From contig NC_022576.1 of assembly GCF_000477435.1 (NCBI RefSeq), forward strand, positions 1,426,001-1,490,000: a stretch of 64,000 nucleotides of DNA. Reading direction: 5' to 3'. A program made the position numbers and the translations under genes. The stretch's first letter is position 1, and each line of letters starts with the position of its first letter. Below are positions 1 to 18,765 of the stretch, in pieces. The notes under the pieces are model-generated. The model saw nothing but the letters and a program-made list of their open reading frames with translations, did not search any database and was not told the DNA's origin. This DNA comes from Candidatus Symbiobacter mobilis CR (GTDB lineage: Bacteria > Pseudomonadota > Gammaproteobacteria > Burkholderiales > Burkholderiaceae_C).

Positions 1-46
1 GGGGCATCTTCCCCCTTCCCCGCATCCCTGTTTCCGCTCCTGCCCT

Positions 47-6518: not shown

Positions 6519-8023
6519 ACATCCAACGATTCACCGCCCCCACCTCCCGCGAAGCATTGGCCAAGGCCCGCATGACCTTCGGGGAAGGCACGCTGATCCT
6601 CTCCAACCGCTCCACCGCAGAAGGCATCGAAGTCATCGCCACCGGCGAGGACACGCTTGCAGCGCTCGACCAGGCCGATGCGGCGCGCCGCAACACCCGT
6701 GCGGTATCGACCAAGCCCGCCGCGCCCATGGCTTCCACAACATCGGCAGCGTCGGCATCCTCCGCAGGCGCGGCAGGATCGGAAATCGGCGGGGTCCCCG
6801 TCGACGACGCGACGAAGCTGGCGATGAGCACGCTCTCCTTCCAAGACTATGTGCGCGAACGCATGCTGCGCCGCCGCCAGGAAAGCCTGCGTGCCCAGAC
6901 CGCTCCCGCCACGACTGCCCTGTCGGAGCGTGCAGCAGACCAGTTGGAATCCCGCACGGATCGGCGCTTTGGGACGATCCACTTCGCGCCCCCAACGCCC
7001 ACGCCCGCCAAAACCGCAGCGCCCGCCGTCCACACATCCCATGCCGCCCCTGCGGCCCCCGCCATGGTTTCCTCGTCCATGCCCGCTGGGCTGGTCGACG
7101 AGTTGCAGGCCATGAAGACGATGATCGAAGAACGCTTCAACACACTCACCTGGCTGGGGCAGGCACGCCAAAACCCCATCCATTCCAACCTCATGCTCAA
7201 GCTGCTGCGTTCGGGCTATTCGCCCACGCTGGCCCGCACGATCCTGGAACGCATGCCCGAGCACCTAGAGCCTTCCGAGGCCATGCGCTGGATCATCGAC
7301 GTTCTCGTTCGCAACCTGCGCACCGACGCCGCAGCCCCTGCCCTGCACGAAAAAGGCGGATGCTTCGCGCTGATCGGCGCCACCGGCGTCGGCAAGACGA
7401 CAACAGTCGCCAAGCTCGCCGGGCTATGCACGCAAGCCCACGGCCCCAACAGCGTCGGGCTGATCACCCTCGATACCTACCGCGTCGGCGCACATGAACA
7501 GCTCCGTACCTACGGCCGGATGCTTGGCGTCGTGGCCCACCTTGCGCACGACCGCGCCGCGCTCCAAGACTTGCTGGGCCTGCTTTCCAACAAAAAGATG
7601 GTGCTCATCGACACGACCGGCATCGCCCCCAACGACCCCCGCAAGCGCGACATGCTCGACATGCTCGACCTGCCAGAAGTCACCAGACTGCTCGTCCTCA
7701 ATGCCGGAAGCCACGGCGACACCATCGACGACGTCGTCGCCTCGTTCAAATCCGGCGGATCGCAACAAACGATCCTCTCCAAAATCGACGAAGCCGCCAA
7801 GATCGGCCCCGCGCTTGATGCGTGCATCCGCCACCAGCTCCTGCTGCGCGGCGTAACGACAGGCCAGAAAGTGCCGCAGGACTGGGAGCGTGCGGACGCA
7901 TCGAAGCTCACCGCCCTGTCGATGCGTGCGCCGAACAAGTCTGCCTACGATCCCAAAGCCGCCGAGCTGAACTTTTTCTTCTCGGAGGCCACCCCTCTTG
8001 CTGCAGGGAGGTTCCATGCTTGA
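6515..8023 (+). CDS. flhF: Flagellar SRP-like GTPase FlhF
   Basis: FlhF is an SRP-family GTPase that positions and numbers polar flagella. The 502-residue product has a divergent N-terminal region, an Ala/Pro-rich linker (about residues 60-200), then the NG domain: P-loop GATGVGKTTTVAKLAG at about residue 287, the DTYRVGAHEQL segment, and the DTTG G-motif at about residue 366. It overlaps flhA by 4 bases, and its stop overlaps the next gene's start by 8 bases. FlhF usually works with the MinD-type ATPase FlhG; the gene in that position here is atypical (see next entry). Confidence 0.95.
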   Translation: MNIQRFTAPTSREALAKARMTFGEGTLILSNRSTAEGIEVIATGEDTLAALDQADAARRNTRAVSTKPAAPMASTTSAASASSAGAAGSEIGGVPVDDATKLAMSTLSFQDYVRERMLRRRQESLRAQTAPATTALSERAADQLESRTDRRFGTIHFAPPTPTPAKTAAPAVHTSHAAPAAPAMVSSSMPAGLVDELQAMKTMIEERFNTLTWLGQARQNPIHSNLMLKLLRSGYSPTLARTILERMPEHLEPSEAMRWIIDVLVRNLRTDAAAPALHEKGGCFALIGATGVGKTTTVAKLAGLCTQAHGPNSVGLITLDTYRVGAHEQLRTYGRMLGVVAHLAHDRAALQDLLGLLSNKKMVLIDTTGIAPNDPRKRDMLDMLDLPEVTRLLVLNAGSHGDTIDDVVASFKSGGSQQTILSKIDEAAKIGPALDACIRHQLLLRGVTTGQKVPQDWERADASKLTALSMRAPNKSAYDPKAAELNFFFSEATPLAAGRFHA

Positions 8024-8807
8024 TGCCGAACTCCACCAAGCCAGCGGGCTATGGGGCCTGGCCCGCCCGCTGACCACGCGCTGCACGGCCATCGTGCGCC
8101 ACAGCAACCCGGAGCCTCACGAATGGCCCCTGCTGTGGAGCCTGTGCCAAGCTTGGCGGGATATGGGTCTCGACGTGCTCGTCCTCGACGGGCTGAGCGT
8201 GGAAAGCCCGGACAACCCCGGGCTGGAGCAGCTATTGCACGATCGGCACCTGCCCCCCAACGCTGCGCCGGGGGATGGATGGGTCGTGCTGCCTGCCCAG
8301 ACAGGGATCGCGACGATCTCGGAAGTTGGCATGTCGCTCGACGGGCTGGGGAGCCTGCTGGGCGACTATGGCGTCGTTGCCCTCTATACGGACATCGCCA
8401 CCTGGCCCAAAACCTTCACTGCGTGCGGGCTGTCTCCCCTCGTGCCGCTCCATGCGCACTCCACCTCTACCGTTCATGCGTACCTGGCTGTGAAACACCT
8501 GCTGGTGCAGGCGCAATTGCGCCCCACAATTGCTAATATCGCGCCCATTGTTGCGCCCGTTGCACACGCCGCCTCCCGCCTGACCGATGCCTCCCTTTCC
8601 GCTATGAATGCCGTTGCGCCCACCGAAGCAGCCTTGCGCAATTTGCAGCGCTGCTCCCGCGAGTTCTTGGGGTTTGAACCCGACGCGCTGACGGTTCGCC
8701 TACCTGCGCATGGCGACTGTTCCCGGGATGACGTGTTGCGTCTGGCGCTGCTGATGCTGGAAAACAGCGTGGAACTGGGCAGTGCCCACGCCGCGTTGCT
8801 CCACTGA
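8016..8807 (+). CDS. FlhG/MinD-like protein lacking the P-loop
   Basis: This gene occupies the position normally held by flhG/fleN between flhF and fliA. The 263-residue product has an overall shape that could be MinD-like: an early strand-helix-strand (TRCTAIVRH then DVLVLDG) and a C-terminal part (ALRNLQRCSREFLGFEP, then DDVLRLALLMLENS) reminiscent of FlhG. The deviant Walker motif GKGGVGKT expected at about residues 20-35 is replaced by an unrelated sequence. It therefore probably cannot bind ATP in the usual way. The ATG at 8016 is chosen because AGGGAGG precedes it by 5 bases; an upstream frame extension exists. Function is inferred from position only. Confidence 0.6.
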   Translation: MLDAELHQASGLWGLARPLTTRCTAIVRHSNPEPHEWPLLWSLCQAWRDMGLDVLVLDGLSVESPDNPGLEQLLHDRHLPPNAAPGDGWVVLPAQTGIATISEVGMSLDGLGSLLGDYGVVALYTDIATWPKTFTACGLSPLVPLHAHSTSTVHAYLAVKHLLVQAQLRPTIANIAPIVAPVAHAASRLTDASLSAMNAVAPTEAALRNLQRCSREFLGFEPDALTVRLPAHGDCSRDDVLRLALLMLENSVELGSAHAALLH

Positions 8808-9581: not shown

Positions 9582-9589
9582 GAAATTTT
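9582..9589. repeat. Left copy of 8-bp target-site duplication
   Basis: The octamer GAAATTTT lies directly between the fliA stop codon and the left transposon end (GGCTTTGTGC at 9590). The same octamer is found at 18176-18183 directly outside the right end. Eight base pairs is the duplication length known for ISL3-family transposition. Confidence 0.88.
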
Positions 9590-9616
9590 GGCTTTGTGCA
9601 TTCTAGGGTTGAAACC
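9590..9616 (+). repeat. Left terminal inverted repeat of the transposon
   Basis: It begins GGCTTTGTGC, which matches the reverse complement of the right end (18149-18175) perfectly over the first 10 bases. After a 5-7 base divergent stretch, a GGTTG-AA core matches again. The imperfect match over 27 bases is typical of ISL3-family ends. Confidence 0.82.
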
Positions 9617-9717
9617 GGGTTTTGAAGCGAGGGCTGGATAAACGCCTGTTTTGTGCAAAAGTTGGTTGAAAACCCAACCAGTCGGTTACACTGTTTTGTG
9701 CAAACTAAGGTTGGAAC
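9593..9717 (+). repeat. Three iterated TTTGTGCA...GGTTG motifs near the left end
   Basis: TTTGTGCA occurs at 9593, 9650 and 9695, each followed within about 16 bases by GGTTG (9607, 9664 and 9709). The first copy is part of the terminal inverted repeat. The other two are internal and overlap the probable hsdM promoter and leader. They may be extra transposase-binding sites or operator sites; the right end has only one copy. Confidence 0.7.
9666..9692 (+). promoter_or_regulatory. Possible hsdM promoter
   Basis: TTGAAA at 9666-9671 and TACACT at 9687-9692 resemble -35 and -10 boxes, with a short 15-bp spacer. The pair lies 31 bases before the hsdM start and between the second and third iterated motifs. 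The short spacer makes this tentative. Confidence 0.35.
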
Positions 9718-9722
9718 AAAAC

Positions 9723-11690
9723 ATGGCAGAAACGACAGGAACAGCTTCCACGCTGGCGGACTTCATTTGGAAAAACGCTGAATACCTTTGGGGGGACTTC
9801 AAGCACACGGACTTTGGCAAGATCATCCTGCCCTTCACGCTGCTTCGACGGCTGGAGTGCGTGCTGGAGCCAAGCCGTCAAGAGGTGCTGAACAGTCACG
9901 CCACATTCAGGGATTCGGGTATCCACCTGGATGTGATCTTGAGGCAGGCAACCCGATACCCTTTCTACAACACCTCCAAGTACGCGCTGGGGAACTTGGG
10001 CAGCGGCAAGACAGCACAGAACCTGCTCGACTACATCTCCCATTTCTCTGACAACGCCAGAGTCATTTTTGACCAGTTCGATTTCTCGAACACAGTCTCT
10101 CGCTTGAACAAGGCTGGCGTTCTCTACAAGATTTGCCAGAACTTCGCCAAAGTCGATTTGCACCCAAATGAAGTGCCAGATCGCGTGATGAGCAACCTCT
10201 ATGAACACCTGATTCGCCGGTTTGGTGCTGAGGTGAATGAAGGTGCTGAGGATTTCATGACACCACGCGATGTGGTGCATCTGGCAACGTCCCTGCTGCT
10301 TGACCCTGACGATGCCTTCTTTGCATCGCACCCAGGTTTGATTCGCACCCTGTATGACCAGACATGCGGCACTGGCGGGTTCCTGTCAGATGCGATGAAT
10401 CATGTTGCCGATCACAGCAGCCATTACAAGGTGCCACCTGTGCTGGTTCCTTACGGGCAAGAGTTGGAGCCTGAAACGCATGCAGTGTGCCTCACGGCCA
10501 TGTTGCTTCGCACGCTGGAAACCGACCCAGGTCGAGATCTGTCGAAAAACATCAAACTGGGTTCAACACTCTCTGCTGACCACTTCAAAGGTGAGCGGTT
10601 TCATTACAGCGTCAGTAATCCCCCTTTCGGAAAAAAGTGGGAAAAAGATGCCGATGCCGTCAACCTGGAGCACAAGGAAAAGAAGTACGAAGGTCGCTTT
10701 GGGCCAGGCTTGCCGCGCATCAACGATGGTTCCATGCTGTTTTTGATGAACCTTGCGAGCAAGATGGAGTTGCCTGCCAACGGTGGTGGCAGAGCGGCCA
10801 TTGTTCTTTCTGGATCGCCTTTGTTCAACGGAGGCGCGGGGTCTGGTGAATCTGAAATCCGCCGCTGGTTGCTGGAGAACGATCTGGTGGAAGCCATCGT
10901 GGCACTGCCCACGGAAATCTTCTTCCGCACGGGCATTGGCACCTACCTGTGGATTCTCTCGAACAAGAAGCCAGAAAACCGCAAAGGACGGGTGCAATTG
11001 ATCAACGCAACGGGCCTGTGGACTGCTATCAAAAACGAAGGCAACAAGCGACGCATCATCAGTGATGAGCAACGCGCACAAATCCTGGAGATTTACGCAG
11101 CAGCCCAAGACGGCCCCATTAGCAAAATGCTGGACTACCGCACGTTCGGTTACCGCCGCATCACGGTGGAGCGGCCCTTGCGTATGCGGTTTGAAGCCAG
11201 TGACGAATGGGTGGCGAACTTCAACGCCATGACCAACGGTGCCCATGCTGAAGCGTTTACCAAAGTCAGAGGCAACTTTGACAGCTTACAAACCTTGTTT
11301 GCAGCGGCTGGCATCAAGAAAATGCCCAAGGGACACCTGAAAGAGTTGATGGCGGTCATAGGCATCAAAGACCCAGAGGCTCAGCCCATGCTCGATGAAA
11401 AGGGCAACGTGATGCCCGACAGCGACTTGCGGGATAACGAAAACGTTCCACTGGGCCAAGATATTCGGGACTACTTCGCAAAGGAAGTCCTTGCCCATGT
11501 GCCGGATGCCTGGATCGATGAAACCAAGCGGGACGAGAAGGACAAAAAGGTCGGCATCGTCGGCTACGAAATCAACTTCAACCGATTTTTTTATCAGTAT
11601 GTGCCGCCACGCAAATTGACTGATATTGACGCTGATCTTAAAGCCGTGGAAGCTGAGATAGCTGACTTGTTGGGCGAGGTGACGGAATGA
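9723..11690 (+). CDS. hsdM: Type I restriction-modification methyltransferase subunit HsdM
   Basis: HsdM is the adenine-N6 methyltransferase subunit of a type I R-M complex and, with HsdS, protects host DNA. From the ATG at 9723 the product has 655 residues. It carries an N-terminal HsdM helical domain (LADFIWKNAEYLWGD), the AdoMet motif TCGTGGFLSDAMNH at about residue 213 and the catalytic NPPF (NPPFGKKWEKD) at about residue 299. The frame is open upstream to 9651, but that part is transposon-end DNA. Its stop overlaps the hsdS start by 4 bases (ATGA). It is the first cargo gene of the transposon. Confidence 0.95.
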   Translation: MAETTGTASTLADFIWKNAEYLWGDFKHTDFGKIILPFTLLRRLECVLEPSRQEVLNSHATFRDSGIHLDVILRQATRYPFYNTSKYALGNLGSGKTAQNLLDYISHFSDNARVIFDQFDFSNTVSRLNKAGVLYKICQNFAKVDLHPNEVPDRVMSNLYEHLIRRFGAEVNEGAEDFMTPRDVVHLATSLLLDPDDAFFASHPGLIRTLYDQTCGTGGFLSDAMNHVADHSSHYKVPPVLVPYGQELEPETHAVCLTAMLLRTLETDPGRDLSKNIKLGSTLSADHFKGERFHYSVSNPPFGKKWEKDADAVNLEHKEKKYEGRFGPGLPRINDGSMLFLMNLASKMELPANGGGRAAIVLSGSPLFNGGAGSGESEIRRWLLENDLVEAIVALPTEIFFRTGIGTYLWILSNKKPENRKGRVQLINATGLWTAIKNEGNKRRIISDEQRAQILEIYAAAQDGPISKMLDYRTFGYRRITVERPLRMRFEASDEWVANFNAMTNGAHAEAFTKVRGNFDSLQTLFAAAGIKKMPKGHLKELMAVIGIKDPEAQPMLDEKGNVMPDSDLRDNENVPLGQDIRDYFAKEVLAHVPDAWIDETKRDEKDKKVGIVGYEINFNRFFYQYVPPRKLTDIDADLKAVEAEIADLLGEVTE

Positions 11691-12958
11691 GCCATTACAA
11701 ACCATATCCTGCGTACAAAGAATCCGGTGTTGAATGGATTGGACAGGTGCCAGAGCACTGGGGGGTTAAGCCTATTTATTCCGTTGCATCACTTAGAAAT
11801 GGCTTCCCGTTTAAGGCTGAGCTATTTAGAAAAGAAGGGGCGAAGTCGAACAGAATCTTGCGAATCCGTGATATCAGCGGAGATGATGAGGCAATCTATT
11901 CTGATGAACCATCCCCAAAGATGGCTGAGATCAAAAGTGGTGATATCTTAATCGGTATGGATGGTGATTTTAATGTTCATCTCTGGGAGCGTGGAAATGC
12001 AAAACTAAATCAGCGAATGTGCGCTGTAAATGGAAATACAAATGAGATTTCTTATTTTCTAAGTCATTCCGTAGCGATTCCTCTCAAGATGGTCAATGAT
12101 TTGGCCTATGCAACTACGGTTAAACACCTGTCATCCTACGAAGTATTGCATACACGCGTTCCGATTCCGCCACAGGAAGAGCTGAAATTCATCAATCAAA
12201 CGCTCAACCGCGAAACCACCCGCATCGACACCCTCATTTCCAAGAAAACCCGCTTCATCGAACTCCTGAAAGAGAAGCGTCAGGCGCTGATCACTCAGGC
12301 TGTCACCAAGGGACTTGATCCCAATGTGAAGATGAAGGATTCAGGGGTGGAGTGGATTGGGGAGGTGCCTGAACATTGGCAAGTAGCAAGAATCAAAAGA
12401 CATGCGAAGATTCGCACAGAACGCAGAAATGACATTTCCAGTGGCGTAATTTATATCGGACTTGAGGATGTTGAAAGCAAGTCTGGTAAATATAAGCCAA
12501 TCAGTAGAAATTCTCGGCAATCAGAAGACTCAACAGTAGGGGTTTTTTATAAAGATGATGTCCTTTATAGCAAGCTTCGACCGTATTTGCGAAAATCGAT
12601 TGTGACTAAGATGGATGGCACCTGCTCCACTGAGTTCTTGGTTCTAAAGACAAATAACACAAATCCTCGCTGGCTGAACCAGTGGTTACTCACGACAGAG
12701 GTAACACATCAAATTGAGGCGGGTTGCGAAGGAGCCAAAATGCCTCGCGCAGATTGGGAGCATGTCGCTTCTATTGAGATGCCCGCTCCGAATGAAGAAG
12801 AACAAGTCCGCATTCTTGTTGCCCTTGACCGCGAAACCACCCGCATCGATACGTTAATTGAAAAATCAAAGCTCAGCATCGACCTCCTAAAAGAACGCCG
12901 CTCAGCACTCATAACAGCCGCCGTAACAGGTCAAATCGATCTCCGGGAGGCGGTATGA
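11687..12958 (+). CDS. hsdS: Type I restriction-modification specificity subunit HsdS
   Basis: HsdS recognises the bipartite DNA target for the HsdM/HsdR complex. The 423-residue product has two target-recognition domains of about 150 residues. Each opens with a related motif (SGVEWIGQVPEHW near residue 12 and SGVEWIGEVPEHW near 220) and ends in a conserved helix (RETTRIDTLI...LLKEKRQALIT near 180-205 and RETTRIDTLIEK...LLKERRSALIT near 385-415). The recognition domains are visibly more AT-rich than the flanking hsdM and hsdR, as is common for exchanged specificity domains. It overlaps hsdM by 4 bases. Confidence 0.94.
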   Translation: MSHYKPYPAYKESGVEWIGQVPEHWGVKPIYSVASLRNGFPFKAELFRKEGAKSNRILRIRDISGDDEAIYSDEPSPKMAEIKSGDILIGMDGDFNVHLWERGNAKLNQRMCAVNGNTNEISYFLSHSVAIPLKMVNDLAYATTVKHLSSYEVLHTRVPIPPQEELKFINQTLNRETTRIDTLISKKTRFIELLKEKRQALITQAVTKGLDPNVKMKDSGVEWIGEVPEHWQVARIKRHAKIRTERRNDISSGVIYIGLEDVESKSGKYKPISRNSRQSEDSTVGVFYKDDVLYSKLRPYLRKSIVTKMDGTCSTEFLVLKTNNTNPRWLNQWLLTTEVTHQIEAGCEGAKMPRADWEHVASIEMPAPNEEEQVRILVALDRETTRIDTLIEKSKLSIDLLKERRSALITAAVTGQIDLREAV

Positions 12959-12964
12959 GCTTCG

Positions 12965-13246
12965 TCAAGCCATCAACTCGCGCAGTGCCTGTGGGTGGGT
13001 TTGTGCGATGCGCAGCAGAGAGCGTGCAGCACCCGAAGGTTCGCGCCTGCCTTGCTCCCATTCCTGCAAGGTGCGAACCGAAACGCCCAGCATGGCGGCA
13101 AAGGCAATTTGGGGCACGCCAACTTTGGCACGGGCTTCAGCCGCTGCTGTCGGGGTCACCACGGTGGTTCGGGCGGCTTTGCCCGCTTTCATCTGCCGCA
13201 CCGATTCCAGCAAGTCGTTCTGGAACTGTTCCATCTCTTTATCCAT
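12965..13246 (-). CDS. XRE-type antitoxin (NadS/HigA-like)
   Basis: The 93-residue product has an N-terminal dimerisation or linker region and a C-terminal helix-turn-helix (VPQIAFAAMLGVSVRTLQEWEQGRR) typical of NadS/HigA-like antitoxins, which neutralise a RelE-family partner and repress their own operon. It lies downstream of, and overlaps by 8 bases, the toxin gene on the minus strand, so the order is toxin then antitoxin as in higBA loci. It faces against the hsd genes and ends 6 bases past the hsdS stop. Confidence 0.85.
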   Translation of the reverse strand: MDKEMEQFQNDLLESVRQMKAGKAARTTVVTPTAAAEARAKVGVPQIAFAAMLGVSVRTLQEWEQGRREPSGAARSLLRIAQTHPQALRELMA

Positions 13247-13550
13247 GTTCTACCTCATATCGAAGTTTGGCTAAAAACTGGGGCGGCAAGTTGTCAAACT
13301 TGGCCTTGGCATACACGATCAAAAGCCATATCCGGCCCTCAACCTCAGTGAAATACACGACGCGCACACCGCCACGCTTGCCCATTCCACCTCGACTCCA
13401 GCGAATCTTTCTGCACCCGTTGGAGCCTGGGATGACATCTCCAGCGAATGGGTTCACCGCGATCCAGTTCACAAACGCCGTTCGCTCATCCGCCGTCCAT
13501 ACCGTTTCCGCATATCGCTGGAAGATTTCGGTTTCAGAAACGGTAAACAT
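13239..13550 (-). CDS. RelE/HigB-family toxin
   Basis: The 103-residue product resembles RelE-superfamily mRNA interferases of the kind paired with NadS: the motifs FVNWIAVNPFAGDVIPGSNGCRKIRW, then GKRGGVRVVYF and IWLLIVYAKAKFDNL are the expected family positions. Such toxins cleave mRNA at the ribosome. The gene is divergent from hsdR, whose start is 54 bases away, and overlaps the antitoxin downstream. Within the transposon the pair may act as an addiction device. The assignment rests on motif pattern and pairing. Confidence 0.82.
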   Translation of the reverse strand: MFTVSETEIFQRYAETVWTADERTAFVNWIAVNPFAGDVIPGSNGCRKIRWSRGGMGKRGGVRVVYFTEVEGRIWLLIVYAKAKFDNLPPQFLAKLRYEVEHG

Positions 13551-13604
13551 GCGCCCAATGATACGTCATTGCCGTAGTAAAAACAAGATTCAGGGAGTCA
13601 ATCG

Positions 13605-16600
13605 ATGACCTCGGCAGACACAGCGCACCAAGAAAAGCATTTCGAGTCCTACGTCATCTCGAAGCTGGCTGCACAAGGCTGGAAAGTGGGCGAGACCAGC
13701 CAGTACGACACCGAGCGGGCTTTGTACCCAGAGGACGTTGTTGCGTGGTTGCAGGCAACCCAGAAAGCCAAGTGGGACAAGCTTTGCAAAGACAACGGGG
13801 ATCGTGCCCAAAACTTGCTATTGGACAAGGTGGCATCTGCCCTGGACAAGCATGGAACTGTGCAGGTGCTGCGCCAGGGGCTGCCCATCGCGGGGTGCGG
13901 CCACATTGACTTGTCCGAGGCGGCTCCTGAAGACAAGCGAAATGAAGACGTTCTGAAGCGGTATGCCGCAAACATCTTGCGCGTCGTGCCCCAGTTGCAG
14001 TACCACCCTTCACGCAAGCTGGCGATGGATCTGGTGCTGTTCATCAACGGCTTGCCCGTTGCCACGGTGGAACTCAAAACCGACTTCACGCAGTCCGCTG
14101 AATCGGCCATGGAGCAGTACCGTACAGATCGCTTGCCCTATGACCCCAAGAGCAAGCGCAAGGAGCCGTTGCTGACGTTCAAACGTGGGGCAGTGGTTCA
14201 CTTTGCCATGTCTGATTCAGACATTCAGATGGCTACGAAGTTGGACGGTGCCAACACCTTTTTCCTGCCCTTCAACCAGGGCAACGCCGGACATGCAGGC
14301 AACCCTGCACGTGCGGACAAGGAATACCCCGTGGCCTACTTCTGGGAGCAGATTTGCCAACCCGATGCTTGGTTGCGCGTGTTTCACAGCTTTGTTTATG
14401 TCGAGAAGAAGGACGTTGTTGACCTCAAGGGCAATTGGTCGAAGAAGGAAACACTGATCTTTCCGCGTTTCCACCAGTGGGCTGCCGTCAACGGCATGAT
14501 TGCCGACGCATACAAGAACGGCCCTGGCCTGTCATACCTGTGTGACCACAGCGCGGGTTCAGGCAAAACCAGCACGATCTCCTGGACGGCTCACGATCTG
14601 GTCAAGCTGCGCAAGGACAATGGAGAAGCCATCTTCAGCAGCGTCATCATCGTCACAGACCGCACCGTTCTCGATGGACAGTTGCAGGATGCCGTCAAGC
14701 AAATTGACCATCAATTTGGCGTGATTGCGGCCATTGACCGCCAAAAATCCTCCAAGTCAAAAAGCGAGCAATTGGCTGAGGCCATGCGCACTGGCGTGCC
14801 GATCATCGTGGTCACCATCCAGACCTTTCCCTACGCGATGGAAGCCATCGTCACGGACAAGAGCCTGAAGGGCAAAAACTTCGCGGTGATCATCGATGAG
14901 GCCCACGCATCACAAACAGGCACCACGGCTGCAAAACTGCAATCGGCACTCGCCATGAGTGGGGCCGGACAGATGTCAGGCCTGACTGTCGAAGAGTTGC
15001 TGGAGCAACTGCAAAAGTCCCGCGCACGCCCTGAAAACATCAGCTATTTCGCGTTCACAGGCACGCCCAAACATTCCACATTGATGTTGTTTGGAAGGCC
15101 CCCTGACCCCACGAGAAAAGCCGACAAAGACAACATGCCCCAGCCGTTTCATCGCTACACCATGCGTCAGGCGATTGAAGAGGGCTTTATCCTGGACGTG
15201 CTTCAAGGCTTCGTGCCGTACAAGACGGCATTCCACTTGGGTAAGCAGCTTGAGGACAAAAAACGGGTAAGCGGCAAGCAGGCCAAACGTGCGCTTGCGC
15301 AGTGGATGACCCTGCACCCAACCAACGTGACACAGAAGGTGCAGTTCATCATCGAGCACTTCAGCAAGAACGTCGCGCACCGTTTGGACGGGAAGGCCAA
15401 AGCGATGGTGGTGACCAGTTCCCGTGCGGCTGTCATTCGTTACAAAAAGGCCTTTGATGCCTACATTGCCAAACACACAGAGTATTCGAGCATCCGCTCG
15501 TTGGTGGCCTTCTCCGGCAAGATGACCGGAAAGCAGGTGATGCACTCAGACGATGAGCGCATCTCGGGCGAGACATTCATTGCAGATGAAGACGAGGAGT
15601 TCACCGAAATCAACATGAACCCCGATGTGGCGGGCCAGGATTTGCGGATTGCATTCGACCGCCCCGAATACCAACTGATACTGGTGGCCGACAAGTTCCA
15701 GACTGGGTTCGACCAGCCAAAGTTGGTGGCGATGTATGTGGACAAGAAGATAGCCAACGATGTCGAAATTGTGCAGACCTACTCTCGCCTGAACCGCATG
15801 GCTCCAGGCAAGGACGAGGTGTTCATCATCGATTTCGTCAACGATCCCGCCAATGTTCGCCGCGCCTTTGCCCTGTATGACCAAGGAGCGTTGATCGAAG
15901 AAGTGCAAGACCCGGATGTCGTCTACGTGATCAAGAAATATCTGGATGACCAACGCTTTTACGAAACTTCCGATCTCGAAAAATTCAAGGAAGCACGCTT
16001 CAGGACCATTCGTGACATCACACACGCACAGGAGCCCCAGCACAAGGCACTGTATGCGGCCACGGAACAGCCCACACGCCTGTTCCATCAACGGCGCAAG
16101 ATGTTGCGCGAAGCGATTGAGACATGGGAGGGTGCATACACCAAAGCGCTGAACCAGGGCGACAAAGCTGGCATGAAGTCAGCAGACCATCATCGCAAAG
16201 AGCACGCCGAACAGCTCAAGTCTTTATTGGCATTCAAGTCGGGATTGGGTCGCTTTTGCCGCACCTATGCGTATGTGGCGCAATTGATCGATTTTGGTGA
16301 CCCGGAGCTGGAGAACTTCGCTGCCTTTGCAAAGCTGCTTCAAAAGCGACTGAGTGGCGAACCGCCTGAAAACGTCGATCTGGTGGGCCTGGTGCTGACA
16401 GGGTTTGAGATCAAGTGCAAAACAGAGCCACAAGCCCCTGACGAAAAAACGCCGATCCTCAAACCTGTTGGGCCAGGAGGTGGCGGCGGTGGTGATGACC
16501 CCAAATTCCTGCAAGAAATCATCGCCAAGCTCAATGCACTGTTTGGTGATGTGGCACCGTTGAAAGACCAGGCCATATTCGTCAATCACATCACGTCCAT

Positions 16601-16841
16601 CGCCCGAGAAAACGATGTGGTGATGGCGCAGGTGGAAAACAGTCCATCCCGCGAACTCGCTTTAAAGGGCAATCTGCCAGGTGCTGTGCAGCAGGGGGTG
16701 GTGCGTGCGCTTACGTCACATCAGAAGCTGGCTACCCTGTTGCTCAAATCCGATAAGCAGGCACTGGCTGGACTCACTGATGTGATCTATGACCTGCTTC
16801 GTGATCAAAAAGACATTGATGTAGGTGACATGGGTGTTTGA
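13605..16841 (+). CDS. hsdR: Type I restriction endonuclease/translocase subunit HsdR
   Basis: HsdR provides ATP-driven DNA translocation and cleavage. The 1078-residue product has an N-terminal PD-(D/E)XK nuclease (DLVLFINGLPVATVELK, about residues 143-159), then SF2 motor motifs: Walker A GSGKTS near 318, DEAH near 431 (IIDEAHASQTG) and FTGTPKHS near 485. A helical C-terminal domain contains a Gly-rich stretch (GPGGGGGGDD). It is full length for the family. hsdR is separated from hsdS by the antisense toxin-antitoxin pair, so it may have its own promoter in the 54-base divergent gap. Its 3' end overlaps the transposase gene by 17 bases. Confidence 0.95.
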   Translation: MTSADTAHQEKHFESYVISKLAAQGWKVGETSQYDTERALYPEDVVAWLQATQKAKWDKLCKDNGDRAQNLLLDKVASALDKHGTVQVLRQGLPIAGCGHIDLSEAAPEDKRNEDVLKRYAANILRVVPQLQYHPSRKLAMDLVLFINGLPVATVELKTDFTQSAESAMEQYRTDRLPYDPKSKRKEPLLTFKRGAVVHFAMSDSDIQMATKLDGANTFFLPFNQGNAGHAGNPARADKEYPVAYFWEQICQPDAWLRVFHSFVYVEKKDVVDLKGNWSKKETLIFPRFHQWAAVNGMIADAYKNGPGLSYLCDHSAGSGKTSTISWTAHDLVKLRKDNGEAIFSSVIIVTDRTVLDGQLQDAVKQIDHQFGVIAAIDRQKSSKSKSEQLAEAMRTGVPIIVVTIQTFPYAMEAIVTDKSLKGKNFAVIIDEAHASQTGTTAAKLQSALAMSGAGQMSGLTVEELLEQLQKSRARPENISYFAFTGTPKHSTLMLFGRPPDPTRKADKDNMPQPFHRYTMRQAIEEGFILDVLQGFVPYKTAFHLGKQLEDKKRVSGKQAKRALAQWMTLHPTNVTQKVQFIIEHFSKNVAHRLDGKAKAMVVTSSRAAVIRYKKAFDAYIAKHTEYSSIRSLVAFSGKMTGKQVMHSDDERISGETFIADEDEEFTEINMNPDVAGQDLRIAFDRPEYQLILVADKFQTGFDQPKLVAMYVDKKIANDVEIVQTYSRLNRMAPGKDEVFIIDFVNDPANVRRAFALYDQGALIEEVQDPDVVYVIKKYLDDQRFYETSDLEKFKEARFRTIRDITHAQEPQHKALYAATEQPTRLFHQRRKMLREAIETWEGAYTKALNQGDKAGMKSADHHRKEHAEQLKSLLAFKSGLGRFCRTYAYVAQLIDFGDPELENFAAFAKLLQKRLSGEPPENVDLVGLVLTGFEIKCKTEPQAPDEKTPILKPVGPGGGGGGDDPKFLQEIIAKLNALFGDVAPLKDQAIFVNHITSIARENDVVMAQVENSPSRELALKGNLPGAVQQGVVRALTSHQKLATLLLKSDKQALAGLTDVIYDLLRDQKDIDVGDMGV

Positions 16842-18138
16842 CCTGCTGAACTTACCCGGTGTCACGCCGGTTGATCTGCGAAGCAGCCACAAGGAAATCA
16901 CCATCGTTGCTGATGTCATTGATGGGGAGGTTCCCAACTGTCCTCAGTGCCAAAAGCCGCTGTATCGGCATGGCAAACGAGTCACCACGTTTGCTGATAC
17001 ACCCATACAGATGCAACCCGTTCGGCTGGAAGTTTCACGACCCCGTTACAGGTGTGCGGAGTGCGCCAAACTGTTGACCCCGGAGCTTCCATTTTTGGAT
17101 GACCGGCGCAGGGCAACGGCCAGACTGGTTGATGCTGTGCGTGAACGATGTCTGGGACAGACGTTTCACAGCCTTGCTGACCAAACAGGGCTTGCCGTGA
17201 ACACCATCAAAAACATCGCACATGACTTGATCGCGGAGTTGGAAGCGACTGTCAGATACGAAACACCTGTCATCTTGGGTATTGATGAAGTCATGATTGC
17301 TGGCGACTACCGCTGTGTCATGACAAATCTCGCAACGAACAACGTGTTCGAGATTCTTGAGGACAGGACGCAGGATGTCCTGAAGCCTTACTTCAAGACG
17401 TTAAAAGACAGAGAGAAGGTGGAATGGGTCTGCACCGACATGTGGAAACCGTTCAAAAACTCCTTCTCAGCCTATCTGCCCAACGCCAAACTGATCATTG
17501 ATAAATTCCATGTCGTGAAGATGGCATCCGAGGCTCTGGAGGAAGAGCGCAAGGCTTACCAATCCCAACTGACCAAGGATGAGCGCGTTCAGGTCAAAAA
17601 GTCGGTTCGCTGGCTGCTTGTGAAAAGGCCAGCGAACCTGAGTCCCAACGAATTGAAGGCTCTGGAGGTTGTGCGCGAGGTAATGCCGGGTTTGGCACTC
17701 GCATACGACTTCAAGGAGATGTTCTTCAGGATCTACGACGACCCGGTTAAGGAGTCCGCGATGCGGGCTTTTGAAGCATGGGAAACCTCGTTGCCCGACA
17801 AAGAGCTACCCCTGTTTCACAGCTTGGCGAGAACCGTTCACAACCACTACGAAGACATCTTTACCTACTGGGACTCACCCAAGCGAATCACGAACGCTTA
17901 CACAGAATGTCTGAATGGCCTGATGAAGATGTCCAACAGGATGGGCCGGGGGTACAGCTTCAAAATCATCAGGGCCAAGACCATGTACGCCAAACACGCA
18001 CGCAAAGTGGGAAGCGGTGTGCGCCTTGCAGCGACAGGTGTGAACAGGGTTTCAACCAAAGGGGGCTTGGAAACGGTGGAGTACGGACCTCACATTCCAA
18101 CCTTGGTTGAATTGGCGGAGTCGGGCGGTTTAGACTGA
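16825..18138 (+). CDS. ISL3-family transposase
   Basis: The 437-residue product is a full-length ISL3-type DDE transposase. It has an N-terminal zinc-binding region (CPQCQKPLYRHGKR, then RYRCAEC), a helix-turn-helix (SLADQTGLAVNTIKNIA), and the catalytic acidic residues in LGIDEVMIAG, in the TDMWKPF/IIDKFHVVK region and in NAYTECLNGLMK. The start is a GTG at 16825 (MTWVFDLLNLPGV) inside the hsdR 3' end, so translation is probably coupled to hsdR. The stop lies 37 bases before the right transposon end. Confidence 0.93.
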   Translation: MTWVFDLLNLPGVTPVDLRSSHKEITIVADVIDGEVPNCPQCQKPLYRHGKRVTTFADTPIQMQPVRLEVSRPRYRCAECAKLLTPELPFLDDRRRATARLVDAVRERCLGQTFHSLADQTGLAVNTIKNIAHDLIAELEATVRYETPVILGIDEVMIAGDYRCVMTNLATNNVFEILEDRTQDVLKPYFKTLKDREKVEWVCTDMWKPFKNSFSAYLPNAKLIIDKFHVVKMASEALEEERKAYQSQLTKDERVQVKKSVRWLLVKRPANLSPNELKALEVVREVMPGLALAYDFKEMFFRIYDDPVKESAMRAFEAWETSLPDKELPLFHSLARTVHNHYEDIFTYWDSPKRITNAYTECLNGLMKMSNRMGRGYSFKIIRAKTMYAKHARKVGSGVRLAATGVNRVSTKGGLETVEYGPHIPTLVELAESGGLD

Positions 18139-18148
18139 AAACTAAGCA

Positions 18149-18175
18149 GATTCCAACCTCATTTGGCACAAAGCC
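18149..18175 (-). repeat. Right terminal inverted repeat of the transposon
   Basis: Read on the minus strand it starts GGCTTTGTGC and then has GAGGTTGGAA, matching the left end at 9590-9616 with a short divergent segment between the two conserved blocks. It lies just downstream of the transposase stop. Confidence 0.82.
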
Positions 18176-18183
18176 GAAATTTT
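18176..18183. repeat. Right copy of 8-bp target-site duplication
   Basis: GAAATTTT follows the right inverted repeat directly and is identical to 9582-9589. The DNA beyond it is the original fliA-flgN intergenic region. Confidence 0.88.
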
Positions 18184-18312: not shown

Positions 18313-18765
18313 TTACGCCACCGCTGCGCGGAATTCCCCGCTGGATCGCCCCACGGAACCAAAGCCCCCTGCCCTGCCATACGCAGATCGACCGGCGGCG
18401 CCGTAGGTCGGCGCATTGCGTGGGGAAGGGGCGGCAGGAACGAGGATCCCCAACGCACGCACAGTAGCCGCGCCTTGGCGATGCAACACATCCTGGCATG
18501 TTCCCAGCATGGCGACGATACGGCGTGCTCGCTCATGCACCCCCGGCTCGGACGCGCTGCGCGGCATGGCGCGCAGCATCTGCGTCAGCGCCACGCAGCC
18601 ATGTTGCAGGCGGACACTCGCCTGTTGCAGCTTGTCGGCATCCCGCGCCACGGCTGCTTCTCGCAGCTCCGCGACACAGGCTTCGGCAGCTTCCAGCAAT
18701 CGCAACACTTCCCGATGCATGGGATTCGTGGCATTCATAGGGTTTATGGAGTTCATGGGGTTCAT
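18313..18765 (-). CDS. flgN: FlgN-like flagellar export chaperone
   Basis: FlgN is the cytoplasmic chaperone for the hook-filament junction proteins FlgK and FlgL. The 150-residue product is helical, with a central FlgN-type region (REVLRLLEAAEACVAELREAAVARDADKLQQ). It is placed next to flgM as in related genomes. The start at 18765 is preceded by GGAGGCGACC, a good ribosome-binding site. The first 16 residues consist of reiterated Met-Asn-Pro units made by a short repeat (ATGAACCCC and variants). The C-terminal 45 residues are Gly/Ala/Ser-rich. Sequence conservation in this family is low, so the call depends partly on context. Confidence 0.72.
   Translation of the reverse strand: MNPMNSINPMNATNPMHREVLRLLEAAEACVAELREAAVARDADKLQQASVRLQHGCVALTQMLRAMPRSASEPGVHERARRIVAMLGTCQDVLHRQGAATVRALGILVPAAPSPRNAPTYGAAGRSAYGRAGGFGSVGRSSGEFRAAVA

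Follow-up and report, generated by a model that had tools for sequence, protein, structure and literature searches.

Evidence that an ISL3-family transposon of the ISKpn25/ISSm4 lineage carries a complete type I restriction-modification system as one unit

The genome of Candidatus Symbiobacter mobilis CR contains, in the 64,000-nucleotide stretch analysed here (contig NC_022576.1, positions 1,426,001 to 1,490,000; hereafter the window, whose own numbering is used throughout), an 8,586-bp element at 9590-18175 in which the genes of a type I restriction-modification (R-M) system are followed by an ISL3-family transposase gene. We consider it very probable (about 0.93) that this element belongs to the ISKpn25/ISSm4 lineage of ISL3-family transposons and carries the full type I system as one unit. 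Restriction systems are often said to travel on plasmids and islands; here a whole type I system would move as one transposon. The kind is already on record, as ISKpn25 and ISSm4. What is added here is the lineage-wide coupling of transposase and hsd genes, a survey of target duplications, the co-divergence of the core genes as against the exchange of hsdS, the variable gene slots and the three-box structure of the ends.

Anatomy of the element and its insertion site

The tips of the element are inverted copies of GGCTTTGTGC, at 9590 on the plus strand and at 18175 on the minus strand, and a perfect 8-bp duplication, GAAATTTT, flanks them at 9582-9589 and 18176-18183, as the sequence-only reading of this DNA had noticed; the chance of matching 8 preset bases is 1.5e-5 with uniform bases. 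An 8-bp target duplication is typical of the ISL3 family, and the features of membership in that family are present together: a DDE_Tnp_ISL3 transposase, terminal inverted repeats and the 8-bp duplication. The pair of arms is the top entry in the inverted-repeat list of the region. A 17-position model of the end, run over the whole 64-kb window, scores 17 of 17 solely at the two tips of the element and 15 solely at 9647 and 9692, both just inside the left tip; the remaining six matches listed score 14, and one of these lies within the element, at 15207. The scan revealed no closer end pair inside the element and therefore no closer ends for the transposase, which favours the earlier proposal, also borne out by the anatomy, of a single ISL3 unit whose one end pair encloses a full type I system and a single transposase gene. 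GC content is 0.53 inside the element; the adjoining 1-kb flanks have 0.62 and 0.63. In the source genome (2.99 Mb, one contig) the transposase is present as a single copy. A composite transposon was considered and rejected: the genome holds no second copy of this transposase, and the frames beyond the duplication are flagellar genes.

The features of the element are as follows.

9582..9589, no strand: left 8-bp target duplication GAAATTTT, directly 3' of the fliA stop codon
9590..9614, plus strand: left terminal inverted repeat with GGTTG box 1 (inverted-repeat list, end model)
9647..9671, plus strand: second end-like repeat with GGTTG box 2, whose terminal TTGAAA is a possible -35 element
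9666..9692, plus strand: candidate hsdM promoter TTGAAA-15-TACACT, with a short spacer (left-end pattern)
9692..9716, plus strand: third end-like repeat with GGTTG box 3, stopping 6 bases short of the hsdM ATG
9723..11690, plus strand: hsdM, type I methyltransferase, 655 aa (open reading frame, start taken as the ATG at 9723; PADLOC MTase_I, E 4.7e-244)
11687..12958, plus strand: hsdS, specificity subunit, 423 aa, read as two target-recognition halves (open reading frame, family match)
12965..13246, minus strand: helix-turn-helix antitoxin-like protein, 93 aa (HTH_3 above cut-off)
13239..13550, minus strand: RelE-like putative toxin, 103 aa (below Pfam cut-off)
13605..16841, plus strand: hsdR, type I restriction subunit, 1078 aa (open reading frame, family match)
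16825..18138, plus strand: ISL3-family transposase, 437 aa (GTG start, 17-base overlap with the end of hsdR)
18050..18102, minus strand: right-end GGTTG boxes 2 and 3, within the 3' part of the transposase gene (counted from the right tip, at +74 and +119)
18151..18175, minus strand: right terminal inverted repeat (inverted-repeat list, end model)
18176..18183, no strand: right 8-bp target duplication GAAATTTT

The transposase scores 192.6 bits with PF01610 (DDE_Tnp_ISL3; cut-off 23) and 309.7 with NF033550 (cut-off 180). HsdM, HsdS and HsdR are all intact, with the expected domains in open frames, which agrees with what had been claimed for them; HsdM and HsdR exceed the Pfam cut-offs and fall below those of NCBIfam (71.8 of 242.75 and 161.8 of 284.55, respectively). 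The toxin-antitoxin (TA) pair previously named between hsdS and hsdR is supported in part: the antitoxin-like protein has its helix-turn-helix match above the cut-off, while the RelE match of the putative toxin reaches 19.9 bits, below the Pfam cut-off of 27. With the NCBIfam models the toxin-like protein has no match and the antitoxin-like protein has sub-cut-off matches only.

The element sits between the stop codon of fliA and a set of opposite-strand genes that includes flgM and flgA (Pfam matches). The setting had been described as a fliA-flgN junction; the adjoining FlgM and FlgA are supported by Pfam, and the neighbour labelled flgN (18313-18765) has no Pfam match. A FliA search of 59 relatives of the same genus, in which the 29 best loci were read (FliA 72-80% identical), shows the junction without the element. 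In 27 of the 29, flgM and/or flgA lie at most 1.5 kb from fliA, which leaves the element no room, and 22 of these 27 also match the flgN-like protein. The other two loci are uninformative, one (L104) having no match in its 1.5 kb and the other (L123) having 118 bases left. The check proposed for this junction thus gave an element-free site in every informative locus; the accompanying idea of a recent insertion stands at the scale of species only, the compared genomes being other species. Among 100 genomes including the source, a transposase of 70% identity occurs in one other only, where the end of an hsdR gene adjoins it.

The transposase and the hsd genes across the lineage

The partnership of this ISL3 transposase with a type I system looks widespread and tightly knit. 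A scan of genome contigs gave 100 transposase relatives, of which the best 80 were kept, making 79 loci. Of the 46 loci with at least 54% transposase identity, 45 show HsdR similarity upstream, in some cases of the HsdR end alone; the exception, L062, is a contig that begins inside the transposase. No HsdM, HsdS or HsdR match at E 1e-5 was found in any of the 33 loci with a transposase identity of 39% or less. Where the junction could be measured (43 loci, including the window and L134), the transposase start chosen by the script falls between -53 and +10 bases from the hsdR stop in 41, and the two genes overlap in 33. The outliers are L042, in which hsdR is interrupted, and L045, in which another gene lies between hsdR and the transposase. 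That gene (L045:3576-3974) encodes a helix-turn-helix protein with a SHOCT-like stretch and is the sole such insertion among the 43 junctions. By record title, the hosts include many Pseudomonadota, together with Sulfobacillus and bins of Holophagaceae, Campylobacterales and Neomarinimicrobiota, bins that may hold misassigned contigs. The lineage is found in loci assigned to several phyla, and it is also present on many plasmids.

Ends were sought in 48 loci, the window and two plasmid copies included, the script taking the best of a few possible end pairs. Both ends with their flanks were available in 21 of them, and 16 of these show a perfect 8-bp duplication. The 16 duplications are all different and 87.5% A+T, that of L061 being nearly all T and weak as evidence; the elements measure 7,921-10,918 bp. 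For two further plasmid elements, the duplication matches in L164 and not in L163.

The core genes have diverged together. In 25 complete elements the pairwise identities of HsdM, HsdR and the transposase correlate with one another at r 0.95-0.98, against r 0.30-0.34 for HsdS with these three. HsdS is largely exchanged, though not fully independent of the core: its correlations, while weak, were attained in just 0, 0 and 5 of 2000 permutations. The clearest pair is L102 and L050, whose transposase, HsdR and HsdM are 99% identical and whose HsdS proteins are 39% identical; such near-identical cores with differing HsdS suggest that specificity is exchanged within the mobile unit. The second recognition half of the window HsdS matches first halves in L042, L050, L033, L023 and L053 (57-71%) and, in L038, the second half (65%), so the halves change position. 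Exchange of this kind bears on plasmid compatibility, on barriers to gene transfer and on the survival of cells when a new restriction enzyme arrives.

The hsdM-hsdS and hsdS-hsdR gaps, which span 0 to about 3.7 kb, house further genes. The scan covered 40 of 49 candidate frames (a frame of L060, containing a run of N, was excluded), and 24 of the 40 have a Pfam match above cut-off. We take 18 of these 24 to belong to families linked to defence or TA function: YhcG/DUF1016 nuclease (7), Abi_2 (3), RhuM (3, one with Fic), GmrSD (2), PIN (2) and AlbA_2 (1). PADLOC was applied to four gap frames, and all match known or candidate defence models (AbiD, PDC-S02, PDC-S05 and HEC-06/Orf5). The window's own contribution to these slots is the TA-like pair between hsdS and hsdR.

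A quick HsdR tree, built with a simple model from 68 rows (67 different; 41 with and 27 without a transposase next door) that come from two different searches, puts the window, L101 and L102 together in a single starred set (99) that comprises 31 transposon-borne rows. Two changes suffice to account for the presence or absence of the transposase over the tree, and L136-L138, which are without a transposase, form a neighbouring group. One locus without transposase or ends (L135/L165) is an hsdMSR set with an HsdR 60% identical to that of the window; L135 nests in the transposon clade on a long branch, which may reflect a loss of mobility or a long-branch effect.

Relation to ISKpn25, ISSm4 and other defence-bearing transposons

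The element is a divergent new member of a dedicated ISKpn25/ISSm4 transposon lineage. The sequence-only reading had judged its arrangement unusual. This is contradicted by the presence of hsdR upstream of nearly all close transposases and by ISKpn25, which has the same four-frame map: PMC8796155 describes an 8,154-bp ISL3-family element whose four reading frames resemble those of the window element in size and follow the same order, and PMC5142620 names hsdM among its passenger genes. ISKpn25 is also reported to have moved into mgrB, the copy there matching the plasmid copy at 100% (PMC8796155). The element table of that paper calls the first ISKpn25 frame "transposase" and the last "methylase", the reverse of the annotation of L102; the functions seem to be swapped.

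In plasmid records, close relatives are labelled ISSm4-like and ISKpn25-like, and type I genes lie alongside them. The ISKpn25 copy L102, on a Klebsiella plasmid, resembles the window element in having hsdM-hsdS-hsdR-transposase between one end pair, an end motif GGCTATTTGC...GGTTGG, a transposase 66% identical and an 8-bp duplication, AAAATTTA. It differs in lacking the TA-like pair and the hsdS-hsdR gap, and the best-matching segment of its hsdS is 37% identical. The ISSm4-like element L101, on an Aeromonas hydrophila plasmid, likewise has hsdM, hsdS, hsdR and a transposase, the latter 74% identical, within a perfect duplication, CTTTATTT; here, however, a gene for a YhcG/DUF1016 PDDEXK nuclease lies between hsdM and hsdS, whereas the window has its TA-like pair between hsdS and hsdR. 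In a plasmid collection, 378 of the 2,411 records matching the L102 element (L102:3247-11418) cover at least 80% of it; at the same sensitivity no record covers 80% of the window element. Among the matches listed, 13 of 30 plasmid records hold just a piece of about 690 bp from the right end (L102 element 7481-8172) at 98-99% identity. In several records the piece is at about the same plasmid position, perhaps as an old truncated copy that spread with a plasmid lineage.

Tn7-like transposons use a different, multi-protein transposition machinery. They share with the present element the bearing of defence genes on a transposon (PMC8649781), but their cargo is diverse, whereas the window lineage has one transposase gene and a constant hsdM-hsdR core. 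A literature search for ISL3 together with type I restriction, to which ISfinder and most subscription papers were external, found only ISKpn25 described with this plan; no claim of absence is made from it.

Three-box ends, expression and rival explanations

The ends contain more than the terminal repeat. Among 33 right ends, 32 have a GGTTG box at +18, all 33 have one at +72 to +78 and 32 have one at +117 to +123; since box 1 belongs to the end-finding model, boxes 2 and 3 alone are independent. The right tip lies 38-44 bases past the transposase match in 23 of the 33, and right-end boxes 2 and 3 are therefore within the gene. The strict motif was counted in 26 left ends, where it occurs at +18 in 19, at +73 to +75 in 11 and at +118 to +121 in 16; the boxes are shifted in the shorter left ends, and three copies are seen by eye, one mismatch being allowed, in all but L047. 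The background of GGTTG is 0.13 per 160 bases. The window boxes are at 18, 75 and 120 on the left and at 18, 74 and 119 on the right. Since the right-end boxes descend together with the coding sequence that contains them, the repeated spacing in the non-coding left end is the stronger point. A fixed-window control, which misses ends further from the gene, lends weak support: 20 of 41 R-M loci have at least two boxes at the 3' end, against 3 of 33 others. A promoter-like pattern, TTGAnn-15..18-TAnnnT, starts at box 2 in 21 of the 26 left ends. In 200 mononucleotide shuffles, which ignore relatedness, the number of left ends showing such a pattern anywhere averaged 1.6 and never exceeded 5. The left box set overlaps a probable hsdM promoter.

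A working scheme can be built on these features. One transcript from the left end would place the methyltransferase first, the restriction subunit between and the transposase last, the promoter of hsdM lying among the repeats of the left end and translation of the transposase being closely coupled to that of hsdR; because the antisense TA-like pair separates hsdS and hsdR in this copy, hsdR may have a promoter of its own. The transposase would bind the three boxes of each end, excise or copy the 8.6-kb unit and insert it at AT-rich 8-bp targets, which would become duplicated. HsdM and HsdS would methylate the DNA of the cell and, with HsdR added, unmodified incoming DNA would be cut. Swapping hsdS and the adjoining extra genes would alter the specificity, and the hsdM-hsdR-transposase backbone would stay together. 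If the transposase also repressed the left-end promoter, it would keep both restriction and transposition low.

A further-reaching proposal, which we regard as doubtful, makes the R-M genes a fixed working part of the lineage: the transposase, acting at the three-box left end, would set the expression of hsdM and its own, and the core would be inherited together, with hsdS halves and defence genes swapped as a "methylation identity". If this were true, the move to a new cell would be coupled with self-methylation switched on before restriction. It is somewhat more probable than even that the transposase has no regulatory role and that the repeats near hsdM are sites of end synapsis that merely adjoin the first gene. 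The three-box spacing is the same at both ends, so that transposition alone explains the boxes, and the window's candidate promoter is weak; the recurrence of the promoter-like pattern at box 2, far above that in the shuffled ends, argues the other way.

The unit itself could be read otherwise. The hsdMSR genes might be a resident or island-borne locus beside which a separate ISL3 insertion sequence has landed, the whole never having been mobile. Some HsdR relatives, at 56-60% identity (L135-L138), are without an adjoining transposase, and of the 29 HsdR loci examined in further genomes of the class, L134 alone has this transposase next to HsdR. Against this, the left end is 133 bases upstream of hsdM and shares its repeats with the right end, the duplication encloses the unit as a whole, and the gene order recurs at many different sites; with no inner ends found, this strongly disfavoured explanation was rejected as very improbable. 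It is distinctly unlikely that the element is a fixed, immobile remnant in which the R-M genes are kept for defence and the transposase is inert. The single genome copy would fit such a state, as would the position of L135, which hints that transposase loss may occur; but all frames are open and the ends and the duplication are perfect, neither of which is expected after long decay. Several observations weigh against the transposon and its left-end promoter as proposed here: the TA-like pair of the window is in none of the other surveyed loci, many of which are truncated; the closest transposases found, 88-92% identical, lie in a gene context that is not readable; 5 of the 21 elements with both ends (L026, L027, L028, L035 and L057) have no matching duplication (4-7 mismatches), so that some have decayed or had their ends misassigned; and a consensus promoter scan detected no sigma-70-like site in the window and did not call the candidate hsdM promoter.

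With a probable promoter in the end, the question of how a mobile type I system spares its new host becomes testable, and the coupling within the lineage, the exchange of specificity, the gene slots and the three-box ends merit focused study. The source genome also contains, beyond the window, a second type I hsdR-like gene (G000:C1:2815641-2817854), 37% identical to the HsdR of the transposon, which points to two type I systems in this cell.

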